A DNA stretch of 25,938 nucleotides from IMG/VR virus record IMGVR_UViG_3300009488_000068, positions 1 to 25,938 of that record, one strand, 5' to 3'. Under the pieces are notes generated by a model that did not search any database, had not been told where the DNA came from, and saw nothing but the letters and a program-made list of their open reading frames with translations. The translations under genes were made by a program, and so were the position numbers. Below, piece after piece: positions 702 through 24,373 of this stretch. Position 1 is the stretch's first letter. Each line of letters starts with the position of its first letter. Source of the stretch: a virus.

Positions 702-914
702 TTAGTTTTCCTTCTTGTACTCGCACCCACATGAACTTACTCTGAATTTTTGCAATTTAGACCGTAGTTTAATATGATTTAAAACAGATTTTGATTTTAA
801 TGAATTCATTCTTTCTGATAGATCCTCTGGTTTTATTTTTTTTGCAATTTTCATAAAATTCTGATATTCTTCTTCCAAAATTTTTAAATATTCCTTATAC
901 TCTATATCATTCAT
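702..914 (-). CDS. Small charged helical protein, unknown function
   Basis: The product is 70 aa, rich in E, K and L, and predicted largely helical, with a short cysteine pair (CGC, residues 62-64) near the C terminus. No family is recognised. A strong AGGAGAG ribosome binding site precedes the ATG, overlapping the end of the giant sheath gene (stop at 928). The gene lies between the giant sheath paralog and the C2H2 microprotein and shares their transcript. It may be a structural accessory, but nothing in the sequence shows this. Confidence 0.65.
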   Translation of the reverse strand: MNDIEYKEYLKILEEEYQNFMKIAKKIKPEDLSERMNSLKSKSVLNHIKLRSKLQKFRVSSCGCEYKKEN

Positions 915-927
915 TTATAAATCTCTC

Positions 928-3900
928 CTATCCTACATAAATATTTAATTCTATTTTTTCAGCAGTTTTAATAGGTTCTAACGTAACATTAATGTGAAAA
1001 GTTTTTGATTTTAATTCATATTCTGTCGCACTAACTTCGACTGAAAAACTATTTAGTCCTCTTCTTCTTTTAATTTCTTCTAAAAATAAAACTACATCAT
1101 CTCTGACATTATTCCATGTTGAGGTATTATTTTGTTCAAAAATATAATATTTTGCGAATTGTTCTAATGCAGCTTTAATATAAAGATACAATCTAACTAC
1201 TGTAATATCTTGAAGAGCCGATGCCTTTGATTGTGTAGTCAATTGACTCCAAAATGCATATCCTTGAGGAAATTTCACTATGGGATTTACTTGCCTCAAA
1301 TATAATTGATCTCTTTCAATTTGTTTTGTAGAATATCTTATATCTTTAACATTGTTTAGTTTGCCTCTATTAAGTCCGGCGGCAGCAAACCATATATCAC
1401 TTAAGTTATCATTTCTTGGTAATATATACGATGAATGATATAAAGGAGAAAACCAAATATCTTTGCCAGTCCATATATCATAGACTTTATTATAACCTTC
1501 GAATAATGCGGAGAAATAAGTGTTGTAAACATAGTCATTCTCTCTGGATGTTATAGTGGCATTATAATTTGCATTATCTCCATTATCTAATATTGCAAGA
1601 CTATCACCACGTCCTTGAGCTAATGTCATAATACTATCTTTAACATTTTTAGGATAACCGGCATCAAATATTAAATTAAAATAAACCTTATCGACATCCA
1701 AAACATCTAAACTGATCTGACCACTATATCCTTGGGATAGAACTTGAGTTGCGACTGATGTATTTAAACTTCCAGTACTTAACAATGATCCATCTGATCC
1801 TTTTTTCAGTGGTCTCTGTGAAAATAAATCTTCTATATGTTTATTTGTTCTCTTAATAACATAGGTCATATAAATATCTTCATAATTAAATGTATCGGTA
1901 TCTCCAAGCCATCCTATTGAATTTAATGATATATTTTTATTATTATATACTTTAATAACAGTTTCCGAAATAGTCGAACCTAAATAACCCCAAATTTGAT
2001 CTCCTTTATTGTCATTTACAATTACGACATATTCAGCAAAACCAGAATCTGTTGACCAATCAGTGAAATCTTGAAGTGTGTCCGTTATCGTATAAGATAA
2101 AATAATTATAACTGGTATACGTGAATGAACAATTGTTCTAATATCAACGATTTCTGAAGTTGGAATTATTTCTTGCCCACTAACAATTTCTTGTGAAGGA
2201 ACAATTGTACTGGTACGAATTATAATAGGAGTTGAAATAATTTCTTGACCATAAACAGTTTTAGTACAAGAAATTATATAAGAACCAGCCCATATTTCTG
2301 TTGTATCAACTCTTGCGCCACTGTCACCGCCGAATGATAACGCATCACTAATATTCCCATCTCCACCTAATGTTCTTCTCGCTTCATTTAGTACAGTTGT
2401 TGTAGACCATGAAGATCCATTCCATACTTCGGTTGTGTCAAGATAACTTCCACCAAGTAGATATCCACCGTACGCCAACGCATCAGATGTATTTCCACAA
2501 CCAGCTAATTTATCTTTACGTTCACTTAATCCAGTTTGTGTAGACCATGATGACCCATTCCACACCTCGGTGGTTTCAGTTATTCCAGCGGATGTACTTC
2601 TACAAAAACACAATCCGGAAGATGTTGTTCCACATCCTGCTGGGGCTATTTTCTTTTGATTCAAATCAGTCGTAGTAACCCATGAAGAACCATTCCATAT
2701 TTCTGAGTTGTCAGTAGGAACTCCAGATTGGACTCCTCCTGTGGTTATAGCGTCGCCCGTATTACCAAATGACGCACTAAGCATTACCGTATATACTCTT
2801 GTTGATGTTGTTGCCCAAGATGAGCCATTCCATTTTTCTGTTTTATCAGAATAAGTTCCATTTGTAACGCCGCCAATAGATAGTGCGCCAGATGTCACTC
2901 CACAACCCGAAAGACTATATGTTGGTGTATTTAAATCTCCAGTTGTCGCCCATGAAGTTCCATTCCATATTTCCGTTCCATCTTCATATGCGCCTCCGGC
3001 ATCTTTCCCACCAAAACATAAAGAATCAAGTGTTGTCCCACACCCTGCCAATAAATCTCTAACACTATTTAATGATGTTGTGACAGCCCATGTGGCAGGA
3101 ACTGTTCCGCCAGTTGTTATTTCTTGTGTGACTAATATTTCATAACCATGAACAATTTCAGGTGTTGTCACAATTCTTTCGTATGGTACATCATTCCATA
3201 TTTCTGTGGTAGAAATATTTGAAGCACCTCCGAATCCAGTATTACCACCAAAGCATAGGGCATTAGAAGTGTTTCCGCATCCTGCAAGGGCATATTTAAC
3301 TTCAGTTAGAGAACTGGTAGTTGCCCATGAAGTTCCATTCCATATTTCGGTGGTATCAACATTTGCACCTGTATATCCACCAAAACATAATGCGTCAGAA
3401 GTATTTCCACCTCCCGCTAAATTATCTTTAGTCTCATTTAAATTACCGGTGGTTGCCCACGAAGAACCATTCCATATTTCTGTCGTATCAACTCTTGCAC
3501 CACTATCTCCACCAAAACATAAGGCATCTGATATATTTCCACATCCAGAAAAATATCCTTTTATTTGTGTTAATATACCAGTGGTTGCCCATGAAGTTCC
3601 GTTCCATATTTCTGTCGTATTGACATATGCGTCGGTATTACCACCAAAACATAGGGCATCTGACGTGATTCCACAGCCAGCGACACCAAGTTTAGACTGA
3701 TTTAAAACTGAAGTTGTTGCCCACGAGGAACCAGACCATATTTCTGTTGTATCAGTATCTCCACCAGAAGTCTCTCCACCAAAACATAATGCGTCTGATG
3801 TTGTTCCGCATCCGGCAGAAGAGTATTTGGCCTCAGTTAATGAACCAGTTGTGGCCCATGAAGTTCCATTCCATATTTCTGTAGTAGAAACATAGTCAGA

Positions 3901-6900
3901 ACCAATTCCACTAAAACATAAGGCATCAGAAGTGTTTCCACAACCCGCTAGATATTTTTTAGTCTCAGTTAATGATCCTGTTGTTGTCCACGCACTTGCA
4001 CCCGGAATTGTTTCCGTGAGAACTGTTTGATAATCAAAGATATACGGAGTATGAACAATTTCAGGTGTTGTTATAATTCTTTCGAATGATGAGGCACTCC
4101 ATTTTTCAGTATTTGCTCTGTCACCAGGGGCAGCCGATCCGCCAAAAGATAGGGCGTCGGTGTAATTACCACATCCACCTAAATTAATTAAAGCCAAATT
4201 TAAATTAGATGTTGTTGACCATGAAGAACCATTCCATATTTCTGTTTTATTGGTTTTCGCACCTGTATTTCCACCGAAACACAAGGCATCGGATGTGACT
4301 CCACATCCAGCTAAATCAATAGTACCCTGATTTAAAACAGATGTAGTGGCCCATGAAGAACCATTCCATTTTTGTGTTTTATCACCAACAACGCCAGTAT
4401 TTCCACCAATACATAAGGCAGCAGAAGTTGTGCCAGCTCCAGCCATGGAATAAACAGCCACATTTAGTGCGCCAGTTGTGGCCCATGAGGAACCAGACCA
4501 TATTTCTGTAATATCCAAAGGATTGTTGCCACTGTTTTGTCCACCAAAACATAAGGCATCAGAAGTATCACCACATCCAGCCACATTTGTCTTAATAGCA
4601 CTCAGTGCGCTAGTGGTGGCCCACGAGGAACCATCCCATTTTTCTGTTGTACCGAAAAATGATCCGGCTGATTTACCTGCAAAACTAAGAGCACCAGACG
4701 TCGTTCCCGCACTACCCAATTCACGTCTTACGTCAGTCAGTGCAGAAGTCGTAACCCACAAACCCGTAAAAATTGTTTCTGTAAGGACTGTTTGATAATC
4801 AACAATATATGGACACTGAGTAATTTCTGGTGTTGTTACAATTCTTTCATACGCCGCACCATTCCATATTTCGGTCGTATCAACTTTTGCACCACTGTCT
4901 CCACCGAAACATAAGGCACCTGAAACGTTTCCACATCCAGATAAATTATTCTTAACCTGATTTAAGTGAGAATTCGTTGCCCATGAAGAACCATCCCATA
5001 TTTCATTTGTATTGACACGAGCACCACTACTTCCACCAAAAGATAATGCGTCAGAAGTATCACCGCAACCCGCAAGACCACTTCTACCCTCAGTTAATGC
5101 AGAAGTTGTTGTCCATGTTGATCCGTCCCAAATTTCAGTTGTCGTTACTATTGCGCCACTACTTCCACCAAAACTCAATGCGTCAGAAGTATCACCGCAA
5201 CCTGCATGACTACTTTTTATCTCATTTAATACCGTTGTCGTTGCCCATGAGGAACCATTCCATATTTCTGTATTATCAACTCTTACCCAGTTTGTACTAT
5301 ATCCACCAAAACATAAGGCATCGGAAGTTGTTCCACATGCGGCCACCGAGGAACGACCAAGGTTTAATACAGTTGTTGTCGCCCATGATGAACCATCGTA
5401 TTTTTCAGTTGTCGGTCTAAAATTAGGCCACGCAACTCCACCTATAATTAGTGCGTCCGATGTAATTCCACATGCGCCCATAAATGCCTTTCCTTCAGAT
5501 ACCGTTCCCCCGGTATTTGCCCATGTTGTTCCATCCCACACTTCTGTTCTTGTCACATAACCACCACTGTCTCCAGAAATACATAAGGCATCAGTTACTG
5601 TTCCACAACCACCCACACCATATATAGGTTCGACTAAAGTTGCTGATGTCGTACTCCATCCACCAACTGTTTCCGTGAGAACTGTTTGATAATCTAAAAT
5701 ATACGGACACGGATCAATTTCAGATGTTGTTTCAACATCATGACTAATATATGAATATGGTTCTATATCAAATCCATGAACGATTTCATATTGTATTTTC
5801 TGAAATTTCCATATTTCTGTGGTGTCAAAAATTGGAGTATCTTTTCCACCAATGGATAAAGCGTCTGAAGTGATTCCGCATCCAGTTAAACTTCGTCTGG
5901 TCACATTTAAGTCAGTTGTGGTTGTCCAAGATGATCCAGCCCATATTTCTGTCGTATCGACTGCCCCAGAAACTATTCCACCAAAACATAAGGCATCAGA
6001 AGTATTTCCACATCCACCAATATTTACTTTGGCTTCATTTAATGATGATGTTGTTGCCCAAGATGGTCCAGACCATATTTCTGTTGTGTCAATATTGTCT
6101 CCAGTATATCCACCAAAACATAAGGCATCAGAAGTATTTCCACATCCGGCAGGAGCGTATTTGGCCTCGGTTAATGAACCAGTCGTTGCCCACGATGAAC
6201 CATTCCAAATTTCTGTGGTAGAAACAATCGCACCAGTATATCCACTAAAACATAAGGCATCAGAAGTATTTCCACAACCAAAAAGGATATATTTAGCCTC
6301 AGTCAAATCACCAGTTGTCGCCCATGAAGTTCCATTCCATATTTCAGTCGTATCAACTTTTGCACCACTATTTCCACCAAAACATAAGGCATCAGAAGTA
6401 TCTCCACATCCTGCCAAACTATGTTTAACTTCACTTAATACACCAGTGGTGGCCCATGAAGTTCCGTTCCAAATTTCAGTTATATTTGTTTTAGTCGGAC
6501 CAGAAGTCTCTCCACCAAAAACCAAGGAATCAGAAGTATTTCCACATCCCGCCAAATTATATGTGGCCTCAACCAATGGTGATGTTGTTGTCCAAACACC
6601 AATAACAGCAGTGGAATCAGAATATCCCCATTTTTCTGTGGTATTAATGACAGCGCCAGTATTTCCACCAAAACATAAAGAATCTGACGTATTTCCACAT
6701 CCGGAATGGTCATATTTACCTTCAGTCAAAGAACTGGTAGTTGTCCATGATGATCCATTCCATAGCTCTGTTACATTCGAATAACCATCAATATTTCCAC
6801 CAAAAGCCAACGCATCAGATGTATTTCCTGATGTGAATAAACGATATTTTGATTCATTTAATACAGTTGTGGTTGCCCATGATGATCCATTCCATATCTC

Positions 6901-8625
6901 TGTTTTATTAGTTCGATCATTAGTAAGACTTCCTGTATTACCTCCACTACACAAAGCGTCAGATGTATTTCCACATCCACCTGGATCCCACACACCAACA
7001 GTTAATGAAGTAGTTGTCGCCCAAGATGATCCAGACCATATTTCTGTTGTGTCAACAACAGCAAATCCTCCACCAAAACATAACGCATCAGATGTAATTC
7101 CACAACCACTTACAGAAGATTTAATCTCACTTAACGCACCAGTTGTCGCCCATGATGATCCATTCCATATCTCGGTGGTATCATCATATGCATCACTATA
7201 TCCACCAAAACATAAGGCATCTGATGTGATCCCAACTCCAAAAAGTGCTTTTTTTGATTGTGTCAGCGCACCAGTTGTTGCCCAAGATGATCCAGACCAT
7301 ATTTCTGTTGTATCAACATTTGCACCAGTATCTCCACCAAAACATAAGGCATCAGAAGTTGTTCCACATCCACCCACAGCTTGTTTCGCTTCAGTCAATG
7401 ATCCAGTTGTCGTCCAAGTATAAACTGGATCAATATATGATTCAACAATAGAAGTCGTATCAATAAGAGCGGTGGTATCTATAACTGTAGTTGTATCAAC
7501 CAACGCTGTCGTATCAACAATGCACGTGGCATCAATAATAGAAGTCGCATCAACTAACGATGTTGTGTCAACAATACATGTGGCATCAACAATCGTGGTA
7601 GTGTCAATAAGTGATGTTGTGTCGATAATTGTTGTGGCATCCAAAATAGACGTGGCGTCAACAAGTGATGTTGTGTCGATAATAGAAGTCGTATCAACAA
7701 TCGCAGTTGTATCGACAATACAAGTCGTATCAATGATAGAAGTCGCATCAACTAACGATGTGGTGTCGATAATAGAAGTCGTATCAACAATCGCAGTTGT
7801 ATCTATAATAGAAGTTGTGTCAATAATAGAAGTCGTATCAACAATTGTTGTGGAATCAATGATAGACGTTGAATCAGTTGTTGAAGTTGAATCAACAGAA
7901 CCAACTGAAACATCACCTTTATTCTTATCAAATATACGTTCTAATAAATCAAAACCATTTTTTCCAACCATGGCTCTTAATATATTTGAATATGTTTCTA
8001 AAATATATTCAACAAAAATAGATTCACCAGATAAATTTTTGGCGTTTGCGTCAAATGATATTTTATATGATTCAATAACAACATCTTGTCCATCTGATTG
8101 TCTCTCATAAATATTCAAGACATATACACCACTTTTTAGATCTGGATCTACACACAATTCGATTCCATATTTATTATAGAATGCTCCTCTTCCCAACGCA
8201 TAAAAAATAACAAGAGGGCTTCTTACCCCAACCGATTGTAAGGCTGTTGTTATGTCTGTAGTATTATTTATATCCGGTACATATGTGATTTCAATATCTG
8301 TTGATGAATCATAATTAAGACCATCAATTCTTAAATTTGAATAAGCTGCGTCGTCTGGTAGGCACCTCATGAAATATAGTGAACCTGATTCGCCTAAATA
8401 ATTATAAGCCTCATATAAACCTTGACCATAACTTTGTCCATATGTGAGTATATTAGGTTTTCCAAATTCTGTAATTAATTCATCACGAGAACCTAAAAAG
8501 ACTATTTCATTGTCTCTACCCCTTTCGGACAATACACATATAAAACCAATCGTACCGGGAACAGCTCTAACAAATGTTGACAGATCAATAATTTTGGTAT
8601 AAACACCGGCTGATATATTTGCCAC
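928..8625 (-). CDS. Giant tail-sheath paralog with 25 hexapeptide repeats and 35 kelch blades
   Basis: This 2565-aa protein is a contractile tail-sheath subunit carrying an enormous insert. Residues 1-245 match the sheath N-terminal region (ANISAGVYTKI, AVPGTIGFIC, YNYLGESGSLYFMRCLPDDA). From about residue 2179 the sheath C-terminal region resumes (TDTLQDFTDW, RPLKKGSDGS, SQLTTQSKASALQD, KTFHINVTLEP). Between them lie 25 hexads of type TTSIID (residues 246-395), then 35 kelch units of about 44-50 aa beginning at W404. Each unit reads roughly WATTGxLxEAK, GCGxTSDALCFGG, TEIWNGSS. The units fall in groups of 6, 6, 6, 5, 6 and 6, like six beta-propellers, mostly separated by hexad-periodic linkers. 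Translation starts at GTG with AAGGAG 6 bases upstream. The sheath role is well supported. Outward display and glycan or surface binding by the propellers are inferred. No frameshift breaks the ORF. Confidence 0.9.
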   Translation of the reverse strand: MANISAGVYTKIIDLSTFVRAVPGTIGFICVLSERGRDNEIVFLGSRDELITEFGKPNILTYGQSYGQGLYEAYNYLGESGSLYFMRCLPDDAAYSNLRIDGLNYDSSTDIEITYVPDINNTTDITTALQSVGVRSPLVIFYALGRGAFYNKYGIELCVDPDLKSGVYVLNIYERQSDGQDVVIESYKISFDANAKNLSGESIFVEYILETYSNILRAMVGKNGFDLLERIFDKNKGDVSVGSVDSTSTTDSTSIIDSTTIVDTTSIIDTTSIIDTTAIVDTTSIIDTTSLVDATSIIDTTCIVDTTAIVDTTSIIDTTSLVDATSILDATTIIDTTSLIDTTTIVDATCIVDTTSLVDATSIIDATCIVDTTALVDTTTVIDTTALIDTTSIVESYIDPVYTWTTTGSLTEAKQAVGGCGTTSDALCFGGDTGANVDTTEIWSGSSWATTGALTQSKKALFGVGITSDALCFGGYSDAYDDTTEIWNGSSWATTGALSEIKSSVSGCGITSDALCFGGGFAVVDTTEIWSGSSWATTTSLTVGVWDPGGCGNTSDALCSGGNTGSLTNDRTNKTEIWNGSSWATTTVLNESKYRLFTSGNTSDALAFGGNIDGYSNVTELWNGSSWTTTSSLTEGKYDHSGCGNTSDSLCFGGNTGAVINTTEKWGYSDSTAVIGVWTTTSPLVEATYNLAGCGNTSDSLVFGGETSGPTKTNITEIWNGTSWATTGVLSEVKHSLAGCGDTSDALCFGGNSGAKVDTTEIWNGTSWATTGDLTEAKYILFGCGNTSDALCFSGYTGAIVSTTEIWNGSSWATTGSLTEAKYAPAGCGNTSDALCFGGYTGDNIDTTEIWSGPSWATTSSLNEAKVNIGGCGNTSDALCFGGIVSGAVDTTEIWAGSSWTTTTDLNVTRRSLTGCGITSDALSIGGKDTPIFDTTEIWKFQKIQYEIVHGFDIEPYSYISHDVETTSEIDPCPYILDYQTVLTETVGGWSTTSATLVEPIYGVGGCGTVTDALCISGDSGGYVTRTEVWDGTTWANTGGTVSEGKAFMGACGITSDALIIGGVAWPNFRPTTEKYDGSSWATTTVLNLGRSSVAACGTTSDALCFGGYSTNWVRVDNTEIWNGSSWATTTVLNEIKSSHAGCGDTSDALSFGGSSGAIVTTTEIWDGSTWTTTSALTEGRSGLAGCGDTSDALSFGGSSGARVNTNEIWDGSSWATNSHLNQVKNNLSGCGNVSGALCFGGDSGAKVDTTEIWNGAAYERIVTTPEITQCPYIVDYQTVLTETIFTGLWVTTSALTDVRRELGSAGTTSGALSFAGKSAGSFFGTTEKWDGSSWATTSALSAIKTNVAGCGDTSDALCFGGQNSGNNPLDITEIWSGSSWATTGALNVAVYSMAGAGTTSAALCIGGNTGVVGDKTQKWNGSSWATTSVLNQGTIDLAGCGVTSDALCFGGNTGAKTNKTEIWNGSSWSTTSNLNLALINLGGCGNYTDALSFGGSAAPGDRANTEKWSASSFERIITTPEIVHTPYIFDYQTVLTETIPGASAWTTTGSLTETKKYLAGCGNTSDALCFSGIGSDYVSTTEIWNGTSWATTGSLTEAKYSSAGCGTTSDALCFGGETSGGDTDTTEIWSGSSWATTSVLNQSKLGVAGCGITSDALCFGGNTDAYVNTTEIWNGTSWATTGILTQIKGYFSGCGNISDALCFGGDSGARVDTTEIWNGSSWATTGNLNETKDNLAGGGNTSDALCFGGYTGANVDTTEIWNGTSWATTSSLTEVKYALAGCGNTSNALCFGGNTGFGGASNISTTEIWNDVPYERIVTTPEIVHGYEILVTQEITTGGTVPATWAVTTSLNSVRDLLAGCGTTLDSLCFGGKDAGGAYEDGTEIWNGTSWATTGDLNTPTYSLSGCGVTSGALSIGGVTNGTYSDKTEKWNGSSWATTSTRVYTVMLSASFGNTGDAITTGGVQSGVPTDNSEIWNGSSWVTTTDLNQKKIAPAGCGTTSSGLCFCRSTSAGITETTEVWNGSSWSTQTGLSERKDKLAGCGNTSDALAYGGYLLGGSYLDTTEVWNGSSWSTTTVLNEARRTLGGDGNISDALSFGGDSGARVDTTEIWAGSYIISCTKTVYGQEIISTPIIIRTSTIVPSQEIVSGQEIIPTSEIVDIRTIVHSRIPVIIILSYTITDTLQDFTDWSTDSGFAEYVVIVNDNKGDQIWGYLGSTISETVIKVYNNKNISLNSIGWLGDTDTFNYEDIYMTYVIKRTNKHIEDLFSQRPLKKGSDGSLLSTGSLNTSVATQVLSQGYSGQISLDVLDVDKVYFNLIFDAGYPKNVKDSIMTLAQGRGDSLAILDNGDNANYNATITSRENDYVYNTYFSALFEGYNKVYDIWTGKDIWFSPLYHSSYILPRNDNLSDIWFAAAGLNRGKLNNVKDIRYSTKQIERDQLYLRQVNPIVKFPQGYAFWSQLTTQSKASALQDITVVRLYLYIKAALEQFAKYYIFEQNNTSTWNNVRDDVVLFLEEIKRRRGLNSFSVEVSATEYELKSKTFHINVTLEPIKTAEKIELNIYVG
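2107..2250 (-). repeat. Eight hexad repeats before the sheath C-terminal region
   Basis: After the last kelch blade the protein reads in six-residue periods: GQEIIS, TPIIIR, TSTIVP, SQEIVS, GQEIIP, TSEIVD, IRTIVH, SRIPVI. Mostly the 4th and 5th positions are I or V, the same phase as the large N-terminal hexad array. Similar hexad phrases (for example YERIVT-TPEITQ-CPYIVD-YQTVLT) link the kelch groups. The likely structure is an extended or solenoidal beta stalk; this is inferred from periodicity only. Confidence 0.6.
2281..7416 (-). repeat. Tandem array of 35 kelch-type blades (about 135-bp units)
   Basis: The units carry the kelch signature: hydrophobic residues followed by Gly-Gly (LCFGG), then an aromatic (EIW) and a second Trp (SSW) at kelch spacing. 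Counting from the N-terminal side gives groups of 12 (with a break after blade 6 at WGYSDSTAVIG), 6, 5, 6 and 6. The groups are separated by linkers such as YERIVTTPEI...YQTVLTET. Blades are similar but not identical at DNA level. Close relatives of this blade type are common in environmental phage tail proteins. Confidence 0.85.
7441..7890 (-). repeat. 18-bp minisatellite encoding 25 hexapeptides
   Basis: Twenty-five uninterrupted hexads fit the pattern [TSA]-[TS]-[SATC]-[ILV]-[IV]-D, for example TTSIID, TTAIVD, ATCIVD and TTSLVD. They span residues 246-395 of the giant sheath and lie between its N-terminal sheath region and the first kelch blade. Codons vary synonymously between copies, so the array is not a recent slippage product. 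Strict phase and alternation of Thr, Ile/Val and Asp suggest a beta-rich stalk. Confidence 0.85.
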
Positions 8626-8635
8626 TATCTGCTCC

Positions 8636-11600
8636 TTATTTAATAAAAAAGTTTAATTCAATTTTTTCAGTTATTTTAATTGGTTCTAAAATAATATTTA
8701 AATGAAATGTTTTTCTCTTGATTTCAATTTCTGTGGCCCCAACATCAACACTGTACCCAAACAAACCACGTTTCTTTTTAACTTGTTCCAAAAATAAAGT
8801 AACATTAGTTTTAACTGAACTCCAGGTTAATTGATTATTTTGGTCAAATACGAAATTATTAGCAAATTGTTTAATTGCCGTTGAAATATAAAGAACCATC
8901 CTTGTGACATTTAAGTCTTGAAACACAGATGCTTTAGATTGAGTCGTCAACTGACTCCACAAAACATATGAACTATTTTGATGGATTATTGGGTTAATCT
9001 GATCTAAATATAATATATCTCTTTGATTTCTGTTTGGGGTGTATCTTAATTCCTCAATATCACGACATACACCTCGGTTATTTCCCGCTGCTGAAAACCA
9101 TAATTCTCCAACATGGTCATTTCTCGGAAGAATATAAGCCATATGATAACAAGGAGAAAACCACACATGCCTTCCAGTCCATATATCAAATATTTTACTG
9201 TATGGTGAAAACAATGATGCGTAATATGTATTATATGGATAATTATTATTTCTGGATGTTATCGTTGAATTAATATCTGTATTATCACCAACGTCAATAA
9301 TTGCAATACTATCTTCCCTACTCTGTGATAAACCAACAATTTGATCTTTAACGTCTTTAGGATAGCCAGCGTCGTATATTAGATTAAAATATTTATCATC
9401 AGTATTAAGAACATCTTCATCAATTTGACCCGCATACCCTTGTGATAATAATTGAATAGCAATTGTTGTATTTAAACTTCCAGAACTTATTAGTGAACCA
9501 TCTGATCCTTTTTTTAGTGGTTTAATTGAGAATAAACCAGGGATACCAAGACCATCAACATCATATGATCTCTTTATAATATATGTCAAATTTAAATCAT
9601 TATAATCAAATACATTAACATCTCCATTCCAACCTCTTTCACTTGTATCTAAATCTCTATCTTTCCAAACATTAACAATGTGATTTTCAGAATCAGTCGA
9701 ATCACCTAACCATGCCCATATAATATTACTATTTGAATCACTTACGATAATTACATATGATGAATCACCAATTTCTGGATCTGTTTCATATGGACTAAAA
9801 TCTTGAACTGTATCAGTTAGTTGATAAACATCAGTGATAACTGGAATTAATTCGTGTGATATATGTGTTTCTGTTGCGTAAGTCGTGTACCATATTTCAG
9901 TTTTGTCTGTTCTATAAGTGTGATCTCCTGGATTCGTATTACCACCCATTGATAAAGCATCTGTGACCGTACCGCAAGATGCCATTCGATATACACCATT
10001 ATTTTGGGCACTTGTTGTTGCCCATGAGGAACCATCCCATTTTTCTGTTCCTGTGTCCATATTACCATCTGAGTTAAGACCACCAAAAGCTATACCGGCA
10101 TTCCATGTTGATCCGGCTCCATTCATATATTTTCTTTCGGCATTTAGTGGAGAAGTTGTTGACCATACAAATACTTCAACAATACTTGGAGTAATTATTT
10201 CGGTTGAATTTCCATCTTGTGCTCCACCAAAAACCATTGCACTATTATAGGCATCTCCTGCTCCACCATGACGATTTCTACCAGCATTCATACTTTGTTC
10301 GGATGACCATACGACACCATTCCATCTATATGTCGCACTAAGAAGAGTTGGTCCAGATCTATTTCCTCCATTTGAATTAAGATTGGTAGAAGAAGAATTC
10401 ATAGAACAATTATGATTATTGATACCTACTGGTAAAACTGTTGTTGTGGCCCAACTTGAACCATTAAATACTTCACATATATTACTGTATTGACCGGATC
10501 CGGCTGTTCCACCACCAAATTGAATGGCATCAGATGTCGTCCCACATGTTCTAAGATATATTTTTTTAGTTAATATATCTGGAGTTGTCGCCCATGATGA
10601 TCCATTAAATTTATAAACGTCAACTAAACCACTATTATTATAATTACCTCCGTATTGATAATATCCACCACCAATTCCAAGTGCATCAGATGTCGTTCCA
10701 CATGATCCCATCGCATATCCCCAAGTTGGAAAATTACCTTGGGCTGACCATGTGGCTCCGTCGAATATTTCCGTGATAATAGAATATGCACCTGCCGTTT
10801 TACCACCGGCAAATCTTAAACCAGCAGATGTCGTTCCACATGTTCCCATCTTACCGACACCTTCAGATATTATCGTGGTAGTCGCCCATGAAGATCCATT
10901 CCACAAACTAACATTTTGAACATAACCACCTCCTATACACAGTGCGTCACTTGTTGTTCCTAAACCTCCCATATCACTTTTACTGTAATTCAAATCTGAA
11001 GTTGTTGACCATGTATTCAATAATGGGTAAGTTGAATAATATTTTTCTGTTGTTGGCACAGCCGTATAACCCAGATCCGTGTAACCACCGGCACAAATAC
11101 AACTTGTTGTGTCTCCAAACATTGCTGGAAAACAGTGGTAACTATTCATTCTACTTGTTGTTGACCATGATGAACCATCCCAAAGTTCTGTATTTTTATC
11201 AAGATAACTTGTACAGGCACCACCAACCATTATGGCATCATTGATACTTCCAACAAGTCTCGGTCCAAGTTGTCTTTGTCTATTTGCGTCTGTCGTAGTT
11301 GCCCACGTAGAACCATTCCATATATCAACATCAACATAATCATCACCATAAGGATAACCACCGGCAATCAAACCACCATTTGTTGGATCACCACATCCAT
11401 CGTGATCTTCTCTTCTTCTTATCATCACTGTTGTTGTTGCCCATGTAGATCCATTCCATTTTTCAACACGAGTTGTTGGTACAGCGCTAATACCAGCCAC
11501 ACGACCACCACAGTTAAAAGCCCCACTCGTATTTCCAAAACCCCCTGGGCCTCCCATAACGCTATTTAAATTTGAAGTAGTTGCCCAGAATTGACCTGAT

Positions 11601-12460
11601 TCAACAACAACATGGGTTACAGTTGTCTGATCAATATAACTTGTTTGTCCTGACGACACAATTGATATATCACCATCATAATTATATTCACTTGTTTCTC
11701 CGGTAGGTCCACCAGTTCTTGTAACAGCCGCTCCACCCAGACCAGACAAACGAGTGTCATAATAAACTTTTTCTAACAAGGAAAATCCATCTGGACTAAC
11801 TTTAGATCTTAGAACTGTTGAATAAGTTTCAAGAACATATTCAACAAAAATAGATTCACCAGGATTTAGACTAACTGCGCTTTCATCAAATGATATTGTA
11901 TATGATTCAATCATTACATAATCACCATTCGATTGGGTTTCATATATATCTAAATGGTAAACACCCTCACCTGGGCGTTTTACATCTTCTGTAATTTCAA
12001 TACCTAAATTATTATAATAACTTCCTCTTCCAATTGGGTAAAAGATAACAAGAGGTGTGTTATTTCCCCATGTTTGCATCGCTGTTGTGATATCAGCAGA
12101 ATTATTTAGATCGGAGACATAATCAATAAAATAAACACTTGTCGTATCTGAATTTCCATATATTCTAAGATTAGAATATGTCGCATCATCCGGAAGACAT
12201 CTCATAAAATATAATGCACCAGACTCTCCTAAATAATTATATGCAACGTAAGATCCTTGACCAAATTGATTTCCATATAACGAAATATTTGGTTTTCCAA
12301 ATTCATCAACAAATTCTTTTTGGCCACCTAAGAATTTAATCTTATTATCTTCACCCTTCTCAGTTAATGCACATATAAATCCAATTGTACCTGGCACAGC
12401 CTGAACAAATGTGGATAAATCCACAATCTTAGTGTAGACTCCTGCGGATATGTTAGCCAC
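8636..12460 (-). CDS. Tail-sheath paralog with 12-blade kelch insert
   Basis: This 1274-aa tail-sheath paralog starts at GTG (12458-12460), with AGGAGG 7 bases upstream. The resulting N terminus VANISAGVYTKI aligns with both other copies. An ATG 54 bases further upstream would add 18 residues encoded by the intergenic hairpin and is rejected. Residues 1 to about 239 are the sheath N-terminal region. About residues 240-879 are an insert containing a G/T/S-rich linker and 12 kelch blades (first blade W292). The sheath core then continues (QLTDTVQDF, KPLKKGSDGS, SQLTTQSKASVFQD, FHLNIILEPIKI). Its blades are more divergent than those of the giant copy and it lacks the hexad array. The stop is 10 bases from the next gene's GTG. 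It probably forms part of the tail tube's contractile sheath. Confidence 0.9.
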   Translation of the reverse strand: MANISAGVYTKIVDLSTFVQAVPGTIGFICALTEKGEDNKIKFLGGQKEFVDEFGKPNISLYGNQFGQGSYVAYNYLGESGALYFMRCLPDDATYSNLRIYGNSDTTSVYFIDYVSDLNNSADITTAMQTWGNNTPLVIFYPIGRGSYYNNLGIEITEDVKRPGEGVYHLDIYETQSNGDYVMIESYTISFDESAVSLNPGESIFVEYVLETYSTVLRSKVSPDGFSLLEKVYYDTRLSGLGGAAVTRTGGPTGETSEYNYDGDISIVSSGQTSYIDQTTVTHVVVESGQFWATTSNLNSVMGGPGGFGNTSGAFNCGGRVAGISAVPTTRVEKWNGSTWATTTVMIRRREDHDGCGDPTNGGLIAGGYPYGDDYVDVDIWNGSTWATTTDANRQRQLGPRLVGSINDAIMVGGACTSYLDKNTELWDGSSWSTTSRMNSYHCFPAMFGDTTSCICAGGYTDLGYTAVPTTEKYYSTYPLLNTWSTTSDLNYSKSDMGGLGTTSDALCIGGGYVQNVSLWNGSSWATTTIISEGVGKMGTCGTTSAGLRFAGGKTAGAYSIITEIFDGATWSAQGNFPTWGYAMGSCGTTSDALGIGGGYYQYGGNYNNSGLVDVYKFNGSSWATTPDILTKKIYLRTCGTTSDAIQFGGGTAGSGQYSNICEVFNGSSWATTTVLPVGINNHNCSMNSSSTNLNSNGGNRSGPTLLSATYRWNGVVWSSEQSMNAGRNRHGGAGDAYNSAMVFGGAQDGNSTEIITPSIVEVFVWSTTSPLNAERKYMNGAGSTWNAGIAFGGLNSDGNMDTGTEKWDGSSWATTSAQNNGVYRMASCGTVTDALSMGGNTNPGDHTYRTDKTEIWYTTYATETHISHELIPVITDVYQLTDTVQDFSPYETDPEIGDSSYVIIVSDSNSNIIWAWLGDSTDSENHIVNVWKDRDLDTSERGWNGDVNVFDYNDLNLTYIIKRSYDVDGLGIPGLFSIKPLKKGSDGSLISSGSLNTTIAIQLLSQGYAGQIDEDVLNTDDKYFNLIYDAGYPKDVKDQIVGLSQSREDSIAIIDVGDNTDINSTITSRNNNYPYNTYYASLFSPYSKIFDIWTGRHVWFSPCYHMAYILPRNDHVGELWFSAAGNNRGVCRDIEELRYTPNRNQRDILYLDQINPIIHQNSSYVLWSQLTTQSKASVFQDLNVTRMVLYISTAIKQFANNFVFDQNNQLTWSSVKTNVTLFLEQVKKKRGLFGYSVDVGATEIEIKRKTFHLNIILEPIKITEKIELNFFIK
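9900..11587 (-). repeat. 12 kelch-type blades in the 1274-aa sheath paralog
   Basis: Twelve W(A/S)TT...GG...EKWNGSS units are countable. Spacer-like interruptions occur after blade 4 (KYYSTYPLLNT) and, less clearly, after blade 10 (ITPSIVEVFV). Twelve equals two six-bladed propellers. Blade sequences are degenerate; blade 9, for instance, is Ser/Asn-rich and has lost the GCG motif. Confidence 0.75.
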
Positions 12461-12484
12461 TGTTATTCCTCCTATAATATAATA

Positions 12485-12522
12485 TATGGAAGTTGGAATA
12501 TTATAATATCCCAACTTCCATA
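12485..12522 (-). other. 38-nt near-perfect palindrome between sheath genes
   Basis: On the minus strand TATGGAAGTTGGGATATTA (19 nt) is followed directly by its reverse complement with one difference. That difference is a G-U wobble in the minus-strand RNA, but an A-C mismatch in plus-strand RNA. The hairpin therefore folds without a break only in the direction the sheath genes are transcribed. It lies 15 bases after the 649-aa gene's stop and about 25 bases before the next GTG. No U run follows, so it is not a typical intrinsic terminator. A transcript-end stabiliser, RNase processing site or attenuator are alternatives. Confidence 0.6.
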
Positions 12523-12537
12523 AACTAATTAAGAATG

Positions 12538-14487
12538 TTATTTAATGTAGAAATTCAATTCGATCTTTTCAGCGGCTCTCACTGGTTCTAATTCAATGTC
12601 TATATGGAAAGTTTTTGTTTTTAATTCATAATCTGTAGCTCCAACGGTAACAGTGTATGATGATAAACCTCTTTTCTTCTTAACTGTCTCTAAAAATTCA
12701 GTTACATTTGACGCAACCTGACCCCAAGTTATGGCATCATTTTGTTCAAATATGAAGTTTACAGCATATTGTTCCAAAGCTCTCTTCACATAAAGAACTA
12801 ACCTCGCAATATTCAAATCTTGAAGAGCCGAAGCTTTAGATTGAGTTGTTAACTGACTCCAAACAACATAACCGGCTGTGAATTTGACAATTGGATTAAG
12901 TTGATTCAGATACATCTGATCTCTCTGACCCAATCTTGGATTAAATCTTAATTCTTTAATTGTGTTGATTGCCGCTCTATTAAAACCGGCGGCAGCAAAC
13001 CATAATTCAGATACCGCATCATTTCTTGGTAGAATATAAGACATATGATATATCGGTGAAAACCAAACATCTTTACCAGTGAAGATATCGTAAACTTTAT
13101 TATATTCTTCATAGATAGCGGCATAATAAGTGTTAAATGTGTGTGTTTCTTGTCTTGAAGCAATAGCTATAGTGTACGTTGAACTATCACCATTATCTAA
13201 AATACCGATACAATCTTCTCTTGTTTGACACAGTGTTACAATTTGTGTTTTGACATTTGTGGGATATCCACAATCAAATACCAATGTGAAATACATATTA
13301 TCGGTATCAAGAACGTTCGCATCGATTGTTCCCGCGTAACCATTTGCCAAAACAGATGTTGCCTGTGCTGTTACCAAATCTCCAGATTCATCTTTAAGTG
13401 CTCCATCTGAACCTTTCTTTAAAGGTTTTGGTGTTGAAGATGTAAACGCACTTGAAACATCAGTATTGGTTCTCTTCACTTCATAAGTGATTGTTGAGTT
13501 AACATCAAATGTGGAAGTTTCACCTGACCATTGTTGTGTAACCACAACAGCCGTCGCATCAAGATTTCTATTATCATAAACTGCAATTGTATCTTCATCA
13601 TCACCAGAAGCGGCTCCCATAAAACCATATACGGTATGACCTTTACCATCTTTGGCGATAATCATATATGTTGCACAACCAGAAGTTGTTTCCCAATCAC
13701 CAAAATCCTGTTTGTCGTCAGACAAAGTTGATGAACCGGCTGTTAAATCAACTGAAACCGTACCAATATCTTTATCAAATACTTTTGCGACAATATTATA
13801 TCCTTCAGTGCCAACTTTTGCTCTTAATACAGATGAATAAGTCTCAAGAATATCTTCAATGTATATCGATGCTCCTGCGCTATCGACTGCGATAGGATCG
13901 AAAGAAATTTCAAATGATTCAATAATAACATCATCTCCATCTGATTGTCTTTCATATACATCCATTACGTAAACACCGCTTAACAGTGGATTAGTATGAA
14001 CTGTAAAACGAACACCTAAACCATTGTAATATTCACCACGACCAATTGGATATAACATACAAAGTCGATACAAATCTCCAGTCTGAGTTCCCATATTTGT
14101 ATCAATCTCAGCCGTAGTATTAAGATCATCAACATATGAGATTGAAACAGTTGAAGTTGAGTCACACTCTCCTTGTGTTACATCAATTCTTAAATTTGAA
14201 AATGCGGCATCATCAGTTAAACATCTCATAAAATATAATGCGCCAGATTCCCCTAAATAATTATAAGCCTCATATAAACCTTGACCATAATTTGCGCCAT
14301 AAGTATTTATATTAGGTTCTCCAAATTCACTGATAAGTTCACTTCTAGATCCAATGAATAATACCTCGTTATCTCTACCTTTTTCTGTTAATGCGCATAT
14401 AAATCCAATTGTTCCAGGGACAGCAGAGACGTAAGTAGATAAATCAATTATCTTAGAATATACACCTGCGGAAATATTCGTAGCCAT
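12538..14487 (-). CDS. Tail sheath protein, ordinary length
   Basis: This 649-aa protein is a phage tail-sheath subunit of the contractile-tail family (Phage_sheath type). The N-terminal region carries ATNISAGVYSKI, AVPGTIGFIC and LGESGALYFMRC. The C-terminal sheath domain carries PLKKGSDGAL, WFSPIYHMSYILPRND, WSQLTTQSKASALQDLN and KTFHIDIELEP. It polymerises around the tail tube and contracts at injection. It is the unexpanded reference copy: aligning the three paralogs places the kelch inserts between about D247 and T254 of this protein. It starts at ATG with AAGGAG 6 bases upstream. The other two paralogs follow immediately on the same strand. The family call is secure; which copy dominates in the virion cannot be told. 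Confidence 0.93.
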   Translation of the reverse strand: MATNISAGVYSKIIDLSTYVSAVPGTIGFICALTEKGRDNEVLFIGSRSELISEFGEPNINTYGANYGQGLYEAYNYLGESGALYFMRCLTDDAAFSNLRIDVTQGECDSTSTVSISYVDDLNTTAEIDTNMGTQTGDLYRLCMLYPIGRGEYYNGLGVRFTVHTNPLLSGVYVMDVYERQSDGDDVIIESFEISFDPIAVDSAGASIYIEDILETYSSVLRAKVGTEGYNIVAKVFDKDIGTVSVDLTAGSSTLSDDKQDFGDWETTSGCATYMIIAKDGKGHTVYGFMGAASGDDEDTIAVYDNRNLDATAVVVTQQWSGETSTFDVNSTITYEVKRTNTDVSSAFTSSTPKPLKKGSDGALKDESGDLVTAQATSVLANGYAGTIDANVLDTDNMYFTLVFDCGYPTNVKTQIVTLCQTREDCIGILDNGDSSTYTIAIASRQETHTFNTYYAAIYEEYNKVYDIFTGKDVWFSPIYHMSYILPRNDAVSELWFAAAGFNRAAINTIKELRFNPRLGQRDQMYLNQLNPIVKFTAGYVVWSQLTTQSKASALQDLNIARLVLYVKRALEQYAVNFIFEQNDAITWGQVASNVTEFLETVKKKRGLSSYTVTVGATDYELKTKTFHIDIELEPVRAAEKIELNFYIK

Positions 14488-21095: not shown

Positions 21096-22727
21096 ATGAA
21101 ATTTATAATTGAAACTGGAGTTTACAACAGCATTTTAGGATTCGATTTTAAAGAACCTGTAGAAATTCTAAATCCAATTTATTCATGGTGTGAAAAAATC
21201 GATGAACGCACATTAGAACAATTATTGGATATGTCTAAAATACCTCAAGTGCATGACCACGTTTGTGTCATGTCGGATTGTCACATGGGTTATGGTATCC
21301 CAATAGGTGGAGTTATGCCAGTTAAAGATATTATATTTCCTTATGCAGTTGGAAATGATATTGGTTGTTTTACTGGTAATACCAAAATTCTATTAGCAGA
21401 TGGAACGACAAAAACACTTAAAAAACAAGTTGATAGAGAATTTTATATATATTCTATTGATGATAATAATAGAATATTTCCTGGATTTGCAAGGTGTGTA
21501 AAAACTAGAAATAATGCAAATTTGGTTGAGGTTAAAATTAGCAACGGAGAAAAAATAAGATGTACACCAGATCATCTTTTTAAAATGAAAAACGGTGAAT
21601 ATAAAGAAGCCCAATATCTTAAACCAGATGATAATTTAATATCTTTTTATTTATGTCACCAAAAACCAAAAATTGGAAAAAATGAAATTGTTATCAGTGT
21701 TAAATTTATAGAAAAGAAAGAAGATGTTTATTGTCTACAGGTTAATAATAAATTTCATAATTTTGCATTAGCGTCAGGTGTATTTGTTCACAATTGTGGT
21801 ATGTCGGCAACAAAACTATCATATCTACATGAAGACCTTAATCCAGAAATTATTGACAAAATCATGAGTGAGATTAATAGAGTTGTTCCACATGGAACAG
21901 GTATTGGTCATCGTACAAAACAAGAATGGTATGGTTTTAATGAAGCTCCAGAATTTCCTAATTATATAAAAGCTGCCCTTGAGACAGCCAGATATCAATT
22001 AGGGTCATTAGGGGCTGGTAATCATTTTGTTGAATTATTAAAAGGAGATGATGATCGTACATGGCTTATGATCCATTCTGGTTCCAGAAATCTTGGAGCC
22101 AATATTTGCAAGGAATTTTATATCAGAGCCAAAAACTTTTGTGAAGAAAGCAAATTAGAAGTTCCATGTGCCCATCTTTCGTATTTACCTTTAGGTTCAC
22201 ATGAAGGTCAATGGTATCTTGATATGATGGATTTTGCATTAGATTTTGCGAAAGAAAATCGTAGGAGGATGATGAATGTGTGTGAATCAATTTCTTGTGG
22301 AATGTTGGGTTGCACAGTTGAACAACAAATAGATATTCATCATAATTACGCCTCTTTTGAAAGACACTACGGAGAAGAGGTTTTAGTCCACAGAAAAGGG
22401 GCAACACCAGCGTTTAAAGACCAATTGGGTATTATACCAGGGTCCATGGGAACATCCTCTTATATCGTAAAAGGGAAGGGTAATAAGGAGAGTTTTTGTA
22501 CAGTTTCCCATGGTGCTGGTAGAGCCATGAGTAGAACAGAAGCCAAGAAGAGATTCAAGGAGTCAGAAACTAAAGAACTTTTAAAAGGAATTTGGTTTAA
22601 TCGCCTCGCACTCGATGAAGACCCAAGATGTTATAAAGACATTAATGAAGTTATTAAGGCGCAAAGTGATTTGGTTGAACCTATTGTTCGTTTAGAACCA
22701 TTAGGCGTAATTATAGGAACCAAATAA
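21096..22727 (+). CDS. rtcB: RtcB-type RNA ligase interrupted by a mini-intein
   Basis: RtcB joins RNA 3'-phosphate or 2',3'-cyclic phosphate ends to 5'-OH ends, using GTP and Mn2+. The 543-aa precursor gives a 400-aa ligase after removal of an intein (residues 91-233). Family signatures are in order: MSDCHMGYGIPIGGV (59-73), VGNDIG joined to CGM (85-90 and 234-236, with the metal-binding Cys at 234), GAGNHF (N309, H310), MIHSGSRNLG (H327), VHRKGATPA (H432), and TVSHGAGRAMSR (H472, the guanylylated histidine by family analogy). A terminal lysine sits at 543. All expected metal and catalytic residues are present, so the spliced enzyme should be active. The start ATG follows AGGAGG by 9 bases. 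A GGQ release-factor-like gene lies 1.3 kb downstream, as in bacterial RtcB-PrfH repair loci. Confidence 0.95.
   Translation: MKFIIETGVYNSILGFDFKEPVEILNPIYSWCEKIDERTLEQLLDMSKIPQVHDHVCVMSDCHMGYGIPIGGVMPVKDIIFPYAVGNDIGCFTGNTKILLADGTTKTLKKQVDREFYIYSIDDNNRIFPGFARCVKTRNNANLVEVKISNGEKIRCTPDHLFKMKNGEYKEAQYLKPDDNLISFYLCHQKPKIGKNEIVISVKFIEKKEDVYCLQVNNKFHNFALASGVFVHNCGMSATKLSYLHEDLNPEIIDKIMSEINRVVPHGTGIGHRTKQEWYGFNEAPEFPNYIKAALETARYQLGSLGAGNHFVELLKGDDDRTWLMIHSGSRNLGANICKEFYIRAKNFCEESKLEVPCAHLSYLPLGSHEGQWYLDMMDFALDFAKENRRRMMNVCESISCGMLGCTVEQQIDIHHNYASFERHYGEEVLVHRKGATPAFKDQLGIIPGSMGTSSYIVKGKGNKESFCTVSHGAGRAMSRTEAKKRFKESETKELLKGIWFNRLALDEDPRCYKDINEVIKAQSDLVEPIVRLEPLGVIIGTK
21366..21794 (+). mobile_element. 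Mini-intein (143 aa) in rtcB
   Basis: The intein begins with C91 (CFTGNTKILLADG, splicing block A) and has the block B TxxH motif as TPDH (residues 157-160). It carries a block F-like VYCLQVNNKFHNFAL and ends VFVHN (block G, His-Asn) before extein residue Cys234. These are the residues of a standard class 1 protein-splicing element. At 143 aa it has no room for a LAGLIDADG or HNH homing endonuclease, so it cannot home by itself. Insertion splits the conserved DIG-CGM motif, directly before the catalytic metal-binding cysteine. Confidence 0.95.
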
Positions 22728-23202: not shown

Positions 23203-23472
23203 ATGTTTGAAGAAAATGGAGTTGTAAAAATAATTTTCGATAAAAATAAACATAGAAATAGATGTTTGGTTGTATGCTCTAAATATCCTGAATGTCTTAA
23301 TCATGGAGGAGGAAATATTGATTGTAGTCATATAGGACTACACCATCAACTTAGAGACAATAATTGTCGTCCAGGTTGCTGTAACCACACAGGAACAGAA
23401 AATGGTAATGTCACGTGTGATAAAATTAATTTAAATATCATAAAAAGAATAAAGGAGGAATTAAATAGTTGA
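23203..23472 (+). CDS. Cysteine/histidine-rich small protein
   Basis: This 89-aa protein has eight cysteines (21, 25, 31, 41, 55, 59, 60, 72) and several histidines (HGG, SHIGLHH, NHTG), so it probably binds zinc. The C-terminal tail is lysine-rich. The ATG directly follows an in-frame TAA, and only a weak GGTGG lies upstream. A better GGAGG at 23172-23176 has no suitably spaced ATG. The stop overlaps the start of the metallophosphoesterase (TTGA). Confidence 0.55.
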   Translation: MFEENGVVKIIFDKNKHRNRCLVVCSKYPECLNHGGGNIDCSHIGLHHQLRDNNCRPGCCNHTGTENGNVTCDKINLNIIKRIKEELNS

Positions 23473-24020
23473 AACATTGGTTTACATCAGATCATCACAA
23501 TCTTCATGATAATATTCAAAAACACTGTAATAGACCATTCGGAAATGTTAAAGAACAAGAACAGTGTCTTTTGGATAATCATAATTCATTAGTTGATCCA
23601 AAAGACACGGTTTATATATTAGGCGATATATCAATGACCAAGGAAGGTGCTATATCTATCTTGGAAAAAATGAATGGTCAAAAATATTTTATACTTGGAA
23701 ATCACGATAAAGAATTAGTAAATGTAATAAAACAGTATTGTCAAGTTGTTCGAGATTTATATGACATAAAAATAAATAATCAAAAAATTACATTATGTCA
23801 TTATATGATGTTAACTTGGAATTGTTCTCACTATGGCGCATGGCAACTTTTTGGACACTCCCATGGTACAATCCAACCTATTGGATTACAACATGATGTG
23901 GGAGTGGACAATAATGATTTCAAACCTGTATCATTTGAACAGATTGTTGAAATTATGAAACATAGAAAAGAACACCATACAGTTAACAGTATTGTATTTA
24001 ATGGCGTTGAATTGAAATGA
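23469..24020 (+). CDS. Calcineurin-like metallophosphoesterase
   Basis: This 183-aa member of the metallophosphoesterase superfamily hydrolyses phosphoester bonds with a two-metal centre. Motifs in order are D8-x-H10 (TSDHH), G52-D53 (ILGDIS), GNHD (77-80), H111 (LCHYMM) and GHSH (129-132), a complete set. It begins at TTG (overlapping TTGA with the upstream stop) with AAGGAGG 10 bases upstream, and it overlaps the release-factor-like gene by 4 bases. The short length fits single-domain phage and bacterial phosphoesterases. The substrate is unknown. Its tight coupling to the GGQ protein and proximity to rtcB make an RNA-end or nucleotide substrate conceivable, but that is inference. Confidence 0.85.
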   Translation: MKHWFTSDHHNLHDNIQKHCNRPFGNVKEQEQCLLDNHNSLVDPKDTVYILGDISMTKEGAISILEKMNGQKYFILGNHDKELVNVIKQYCQVVRDLYDIKINNQKITLCHYMMLTWNCSHYGAWQLFGHSHGTIQPIGLQHDVGVDNNDFKPVSFEQIVEIMKHRKEHHTVNSIVFNGVELK

Positions 24021-24373
24021 GAGAACTATTATTTTCGATAAAAAAGAAGGATTTTGAAATTCAAACATTTAGATGTGGAGGTAAGGGCGGTCAAAAAGTA
24101 AATAAAACATCAAGCGGTGTTAGAATTATTCATAAAGAATCTGGATCAGTTGGGGAAAGTCGAACTGAACGTAGTCAAAGCCAAAATAAGAAAATTGCAT
24201 TTGGAAGATTAACAAATAATCTAAAATTTAAGTTATGGATACAAAAAAAGATATTTGAGTTAACACATGATAAAAAAGAAATCGAGAGAAAAGTTAAAAA
24301 CGAAATGAATTCTGAAAATCTAAGGATTGAATATAAAGAAAATGGCAAATGGGTAAAAGAGGATAAAACTTAA
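24017..24373 (+). CDS. GGQ release-factor-like ribosome rescue protein (PrfH/ArfB type)
   Basis: This 118-aa protein has the class-I release-factor catalytic domain. CGGKGGQKVNKTSSGVRI contains the GGQ motif (G24-G25-Q26) that hydrolyses peptidyl-tRNA. It is followed by ERSQSQNKKIAFGRL, matching the ERSQxxNK block of RF1, RF2 and PrfH. The stop-codon recognition domains of RF1/RF2 are absent, so it probably acts codon-independently. A basic C-terminal tail (residues 70-118) could enter the mRNA channel, as in ArfB. The ATG overlaps the TGA of the phosphoesterase gene and has no ribosome binding site of its own, so translation is probably coupled. PrfH is normally longer (about 200 aa). Membership in the RF-1 family is secure; the PrfH versus ArfB assignment is open. 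Confidence 0.88.
   Translation: MRELLFSIKKKDFEIQTFRCGGKGGQKVNKTSSGVRIIHKESGSVGESRTERSQSQNKKIAFGRLTNNLKFKLWIQKKIFELTHDKKEIERKVKNEMNSENLRIEYKENGKWVKEDKT

Follow-up and report, generated by a model that had tools for sequence, protein, structure and literature searches.

The 25,938-base window analysed here is the whole of IMG/VR virus record IMGVR_UViG_3300009488_000068, from an uncultured large virus of microbes. It carries three tandem minus-strand open reading frames (ORFs; 928-8625, 8636-12514 and 12538-14487), the translations of which are all tail-sheath paralogs. On balance, these genes probably specify a mixed sheath, in which a 649-aa main subunit would be accompanied by fewer subunits that show strings of adhesive kelch propellers as a decoration of the tail surface. 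A mixed sheath with propeller strings had been proposed in the initial annotation of this DNA. The sheath paralogs, the conserved core, the inserts in the accessory domain and the strings themselves stood up to analysis, whereas a minor decorating component is now favoured over an even mix, because a terminator-like hairpin, found family-wide, separates the kelch genes from the main sheath gene, and the beads are probably six-bladed.

The main tail sheath gene (P0003, 12538-14487, minus strand) starts with ATG behind the Shine-Dalgarno (SD) sequence AAGGAG and encodes 649 aa (72 kDa). Kelch sheath 2 (P0001, 928-8625, minus strand) has a GTG start, also with AAGGAG, and encodes 2565 aa (271 kDa). 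The longest ORF of kelch sheath 1 (P0002) extends to 12514; its start is most likely the GTG at 12460, because an AGGAGG SD sequence lies 7 nt before it, which gives a gene at 8636-12460 (minus strand) encoding 1274 aa (139 kDa). A gap of 10 nt separates P0002 from P0001. The initial annotation had described three adjacent sheath paralogs sharing their N- and C-terminal regions, and profile searches agreed: the PHROG sheath families phrog_19666 and phrog_23 matched the N- and C-terminal parts of all three (phrog_19666 E values of 1.8e-69 for the main sheath and of 1.4e-59 and 1.4e-61 for the two long copies), and the Pfam model Phage_sheath_1C matched the C-termini, above the cut-off in P0001 and P0002 and at the cut-off in P0003. 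By alignment, the N-terminal sheath part of kelch sheath 1 occupies 11741-12460, with 55-71% identity to the main sheath depending on the region, and its C-terminal sheath core 8639-9532 (Phage_sheath_1C, E 2.7e-7); the corresponding parts of kelch sheath 2 are at 7906-8625 and 931-1818 (E 3.5e-10), all on the minus strand. Compared with the main sheath, P0002 has approximately 625 and P0001 approximately 1,916 extra residues. The inserts are nearly as large as had been claimed, with the sizes corrected from approximately 640, given the start at 12460, and from approximately 1,930.

The inserts contain repeats of 44-56 aa with a GG doublet and a spaced W/Y signature (consensus WATTSALNEARYSLAGCGTTSDALSFGGYTSGAVVNTTEIWNGSS). 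A blade hidden Markov model (HMM) of 45 positions, built here, found 12 such blades in P0002 and 35 in P0001, exactly reproducing the counts made previously, as well as 36 and 18 in L007 and L072, two of the relatives drawn from IMG/VR. The kelch stretches span approximately 570 residues in P0002 (9884-11587, minus strand) and approximately 1,700 residues in P0001. Because all 35 P0001 blades scored 40-73 bits and independent contigs show the same architecture, the blades are not a product of chance. Kelch homology is supported by matches of the P0002-type insert profile to kelch proteins in the PDB (E 3.7e-9 to 1e-4), among them the designed SAKe6 (3.7e-9), KLHL12 (2.7e-7) and KEAP1 (approximately 3e-5). 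Unlike this profile search, a direct phmmer comparison of two propellers with the PDB yielded no match, and tblastn and blastn of the kelch stretches against reference phages gave none either, probably owing to the low-complexity filter. The main PHROG match of the insert was phrog_27227, a family of unknown function.

In P0001, the blades fall into blocks of 6-6-6-5-6-6, predicted as propellers 1 to 6 at 6619-7416, 5809-6594, 4858-5658, 4087-4758, 3190-3990 and 2281-3090 (minus strand). Ahead of the first propeller lies a hexapeptide-repeat stretch (7417-7905, minus strand; residues approximately 253-398; SIIDTT...) with 24 in-phase copies of the motif [STAVC]x[LIV][GAED]xx, compared with a mean of 2.6 and a maximum of 7 in shuffled sequences. 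This motif is that of left-handed beta-helices. For that fold, the PDB gave marginal support, in matches to acyltransferases (E 0.014-0.13), which are left-handed beta-helix enzymes; a strong match, 9e5c, was dropped as a compositional likeness to a Thr/Ala/Glu repeat. This stretch and hexad-like linkers frame the propellers. The inserts, first described as kelch inserts, do consist of kelch blades, though not of kelch only. Most P0001 blades (window 2281-7416) carry two cysteines eight residues apart (GCGxTSDALC), and the insert has 54 cysteines in total; possibly, the pairs form disulfides. The blades of L007 mostly have no second cysteine of the pair. A recent import of the kelch region was considered because of its raised GC content and rejected, since GC at the third codon position is flat across the region (0.21-0.22) and the rise is confined to codon positions 1-2.

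The site of insertion was located on an AlphaFold2 model of P0003, the one sheath protein modelled, which had a predicted local distance difference test (pLDDT) score of 79. In Foldseek, this model matched the T4 and Klebsiella KP1-type sheaths with E values of 1e-24 to 1e-25, and its top ranks included the T4/KP1-type, P1 and phiKZ sheaths; the P0003 profile matched gp18 in the PDB at E 6e-31. According to the model and the alignment, the insertion loop belongs to an accessory domain and connects predicted strands 244-247 and 254-257, and both long copies carry their blades in this same loop. Residue 108 of Pvc2 aligns to residue 407 of P0003, and approximately 300 residues before residue 407, where the accessory domain lies, are additional to one-domain sheaths such as Pvc2. 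In a published survey, the accessory domains of sheaths are placed away from the tube (PMC9230969), and by this analogy the insertion loop would face outward. Two further relatives carry non-kelch insertions between the same sheath parts, of approximately 245 aa in L139 (8210-10903) and approximately 90 aa in L138 (1191-3434). Since these insertions are different, uptake of an insert must have happened here more than once.

It had been recognized from the start that the long ORF might be an assembly artefact joining a sheath gene and a tail-fibre gene. Repeats do assemble poorly, the window and the near-identical contig L003 differ by one blade, and the array of L072 could be a collapsed L007-like array. 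However, L003, which has 16 mismatches to the window over approximately 14.5 kb (12 of them in window 5600-5800), has the same arrangement of all three sheath genes, the third being cut by the contig end. In the 312-kb record L007, a normal sheath of 656 aa is accompanied by an endonuclease-like gene and by a kelch sheath of 2390 aa with 36 blades, and a search of this whole record revealed no further sheath gene and no further kelch gene. L072 encodes a 1564-aa kelch sheath with 18 blades; in L004 and L005, the second sheath runs into its first blade, where the contig ends; and in L006 and L013 the start of the second sheath is present. A single sheath gene is present in each of five other large records (186-277 kb). 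The 7.7-kb frame of P0001 is open without a stop, and in four complete genes (P0001, P0002, L007 and L072) the insert is flanked by sheath parts at both ends. The same fusion points thus occur in independent contigs of differing divergence, which excludes an assembly fusion; as an explanation of the kelch sheaths, a chimeric joining of sheath genes to a gene for a kelch fibre, or a repeat collapsed or expanded in assembly, is extremely improbable. Blade numbers, being taken from repeat arrays in metagenome assemblies, may nevertheless be off.

The blade totals are multiples of six: 6 and 12 in stand-alone kelch proteins of L004 and L010, and 12, 18 and 36 in the sheaths of P0002, L072 and L007. 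L003 differs from the window by an insertion of one blade (138 nt) at window position 4511, inside propeller 4, the only five-blade block. Apparent hypervariation of the array between these two contigs was mostly an alignment shift from this extra blade. The count of 35 therefore holds for the window and is probably 36 minus one. Because the totals are multiples of six and the extra blade of L003 completes the five-blade block, each bead is probably a six-bladed propeller. That blade numbers shift in sixes suggests selection on whole propellers.

When blade groups were defined by irregular junctions, picked by eye from gaps between HMM matches, the grouping was 4-6-2 in P0002, 1-4-4-6-2-2-3-4-6-2-2 in L007 and 1-3-4-6-2-2 in L072. 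The grouping of L007 parses perfectly as nested six-blade rings, a fit reached by only 0.36% of orders after shuffling and by 0.01% of break points placed at random, and ring sizes from 4 to 8 other than six do not parse. For L072, a parse is obtained only when the first junction is taken as a scar left by the deletion of 18 blades in comparison with L007. The breaks in some kelch sheaths would thus fit propellers nested inside propellers, as judged from these counts.

Despite their inserts, the kelch paralogs retain 69-72 of the 77 family-invariant sheath residues (90-94%) and the conserved N- and C-terminal arms. Trees of the N- and C-terminal parts indicated that the sheath genes are related by duplication, with all second sheaths in one clade (Shimodaira-Hasegawa-like approximate likelihood ratio test values of 99 and 92, respectively). 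Because of this single clade, one duplication followed by insertion would be the simplest history. In codon comparisons of moderately diverged pairs, the sheath cores of the kelch copies had a ratio of nonsynonymous to synonymous rates (omega) of 0.12-0.24 and are under purifying selection; the main sheath had 0.09-0.10. For the blades, omega was 0.37 (L007/L072); this value alone was used, because that for the P0001 array, 0.70, was inflated by the one-blade alignment shift.

Between the main and the kelch sheath genes lies a terminator-like hairpin with a 17-bp stem (12485-12522, minus strand), which has a z score of -5.4 and is the best terminator-like site in the region. In a by-eye comparison, the equivalent hairpin of L004 showed two compensatory pair changes and no broken pair, and of 24 family members, 21 have a hairpin with z of -4 or below (from mononucleotide shuffles) after the stop codon of the main sheath. 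Since the kelch genes lie behind this likely end of the main sheath transcript, they are probably expressed at a lower level, by read-through. Each of them has a good SD sequence of its own. Directly after kelch sheath 2, a small gene (702-914, minus strand) encodes 70 aa; it is 46% identical in L007 and also present in L072. In this data set, such genes of 59-70 aa occur only beside kelch sheaths, and their product is a possible assembly partner.

These observations are consistent with a contractile tail in which the 649-aa sheath protein is the main building block. Fewer copies of the duplicated subunits, having the common polymerising core and carrying kelch strings (two propellers in the middle copy and six in the large one), would be co-assembled with it, probably after low-level read-through past the hairpin and translation from their own ribosome-binding sites. 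The inserts would project from the tail as flexible beaded arms, with the hexapeptide-repeat stretch as a stalk in the largest copy, and the propellers may attach to glycans or proteins on the surface of the host or of particles. Pseudomonas phage PaBG provides a precedent for a two-component sheath in virions (PMC7412058). Co-assembly, a small number of copies, display on the outside and the adhesive role are all inferred here, and several points weigh against this reading. The incorporation of the kelch sheaths into virions and their binding of a ligand are predictions from the genes; homology, rather than a lattice model, is the basis for placing the loop outward; low expression is deduced from the hairpin, and the tail of the window hairpin is only moderately U-rich. 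No Pfam kelch model reached E 0.01 on the inserts. It had been suggested initially that core and insert be predicted separately, which succeeded for the main sheath, whereas AlphaFold with a five-row alignment gave a pLDDT of 34 for the P0002 insert, and propeller closure is deduced from the sequence.

As the initial annotation had also considered, the kelch copies might alternatively form dedicated rings at the neck or baseplate end of the sheath, with the propellers as a collar or receptor-binding skirt, as in the paralogs of extracellular contractile injection systems (eCIS). The sheath profiles do match Pvc2/Pvc3/Pvc4 and Afp2/Afp3, three paralogs, Afp2-4, polymerise into the sheath of eCIS (PMC12961389), and low expression behind a hairpin would suit a part needed in few copies. 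Nevertheless, we regard such rings, the main rival reading, as rather unlikely: both arms of the sheath and most of its invariant residues are still present in the kelch copies, neither interface has evidently been lost, and because blade number varies freely among orthologs (12, 18 and 36), decoration fits better than a precise ring. That the kelch sheaths are absent from the virion, because they polymerise on their own, serve as soluble decoys or are hardly expressed, would agree with their detection at the gene level and with their position behind the hairpin. Their good SD sequences, strong purifying selection on the sheath core, retention in several lineages and the conserved downstream gene argue otherwise and make this explanation improbable. 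A minor, decorating sheath component consequently remains the preferred reading.

Among known systems, the T4 gp18-type sheath has the same conserved core, C-terminal domain and fold, but is a single 659-aa protein, in contrast to three paralogs, two of which bear the kelch strings. The jumbo phage PaBG also has duplicated sheath paralogs, both found in the virion; they are both approximately 58 kDa, without reported propellers, and are encoded far apart (gene products 76 and 213), unlike the tandem genes of the window (PMC7412058). In the type 3 multi-domain sheaths of jumbo phages, accessory domains likewise form part of the chain and were proposed to aid adhesion or stability, although these additions are mostly Ig-like or helical (PMC9230969). 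The initial annotation had called a 2565-aa subunit exceptional, and it is indeed twice as long as the longest of 153 surveyed sheaths, which range from 321 to 1283 aa (PMC9230969). The eCIS sheath paralogs (Afp2/3/4 and Pvc2/3/4) are several per machine with a similar core, but have approximately 350-450 aa each and no propellers. KLHL12, KEAP1 and SAKe6 have the same blade type, of 44-50 residues with a GG doublet and a spaced W; they compare with up to six propellers per chain, with suggested nesting, in the kelch sheaths. In the open literature on tail sheaths with kelch or propeller domains, no report of sheath-inserted propellers was found.

The jumbo phage CBB and its kin have kelch proteins and a contractile tail with hairs of approximately 119 nm; the hair gene was not assigned, and the kelch proteins were described as separate and not as sheath insertions (PMC5259590). 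As a tentative suggestion that may well prove wrong, the kelch sheath subunits could form visible hairs on a jumbo phage tail, that is, beaded arms of six-bladed propellers, some nested by insertion after parent blade 4, with a length tuned by gain or loss of whole propellers. If so, decorated contractile tails would have a basis in these genes, and the topology of the proteins would be unusual. A sheath of two components was already known from PaBG, and hairy tails from CBB; new are the blade totals in multiples of six, the probable six-bladed beads and the breaks that, in some proteins, would fit nested propellers. The 2565-aa subunit suggests that, by way of duplication and insertion, a contractile lattice may accommodate very large loads on its surface. 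The kelch sheaths are a candidate genetic basis for hairy tails and a natural display scaffold.

Several other features were observed around these genes. Homing-endonuclease-like genes (NUMOD4/HNH, GIY-YIG, and zinc-finger plus restriction-endonuclease-like) adjoin sheath genes in five relatives: four lie between the two sheath genes (L004 6688-7152, L006 5964-6521, L013 3940-4704 and L007 12018-14063), and that of L010 (3835-4362) lies just before the main sheath. The stand-alone kelch proteins of L010 (704-2542, 12 blades) and L004 (1491-2507, six blades) have a common N-terminal domain of approximately 76 aa and are encoded in the structural block upstream of the sheath, a position where the window has no kelch gene. 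When the sheath N-terminal part was compared with genome contigs, the sole match was L145 (DAOVGR010000059.1, 35.8 kb), binned as a metagenome-assembled genome of a Thermoplasmatales archaeon, which may represent either a phage contig binned in error or a clue to the host. Elsewhere in the window, an RtcB RNA ligase gene is interrupted by an intein (21096-22727, plus strand; Pfam RtcB and Intein_splicing), and beside it, metallophosphoesterase-like (23469-24020), GGQ release-factor-like (24017-24373) and radical-SAM-like (CxxxCxxC; 24401-25474) genes were recognized by eye on the plus strand.

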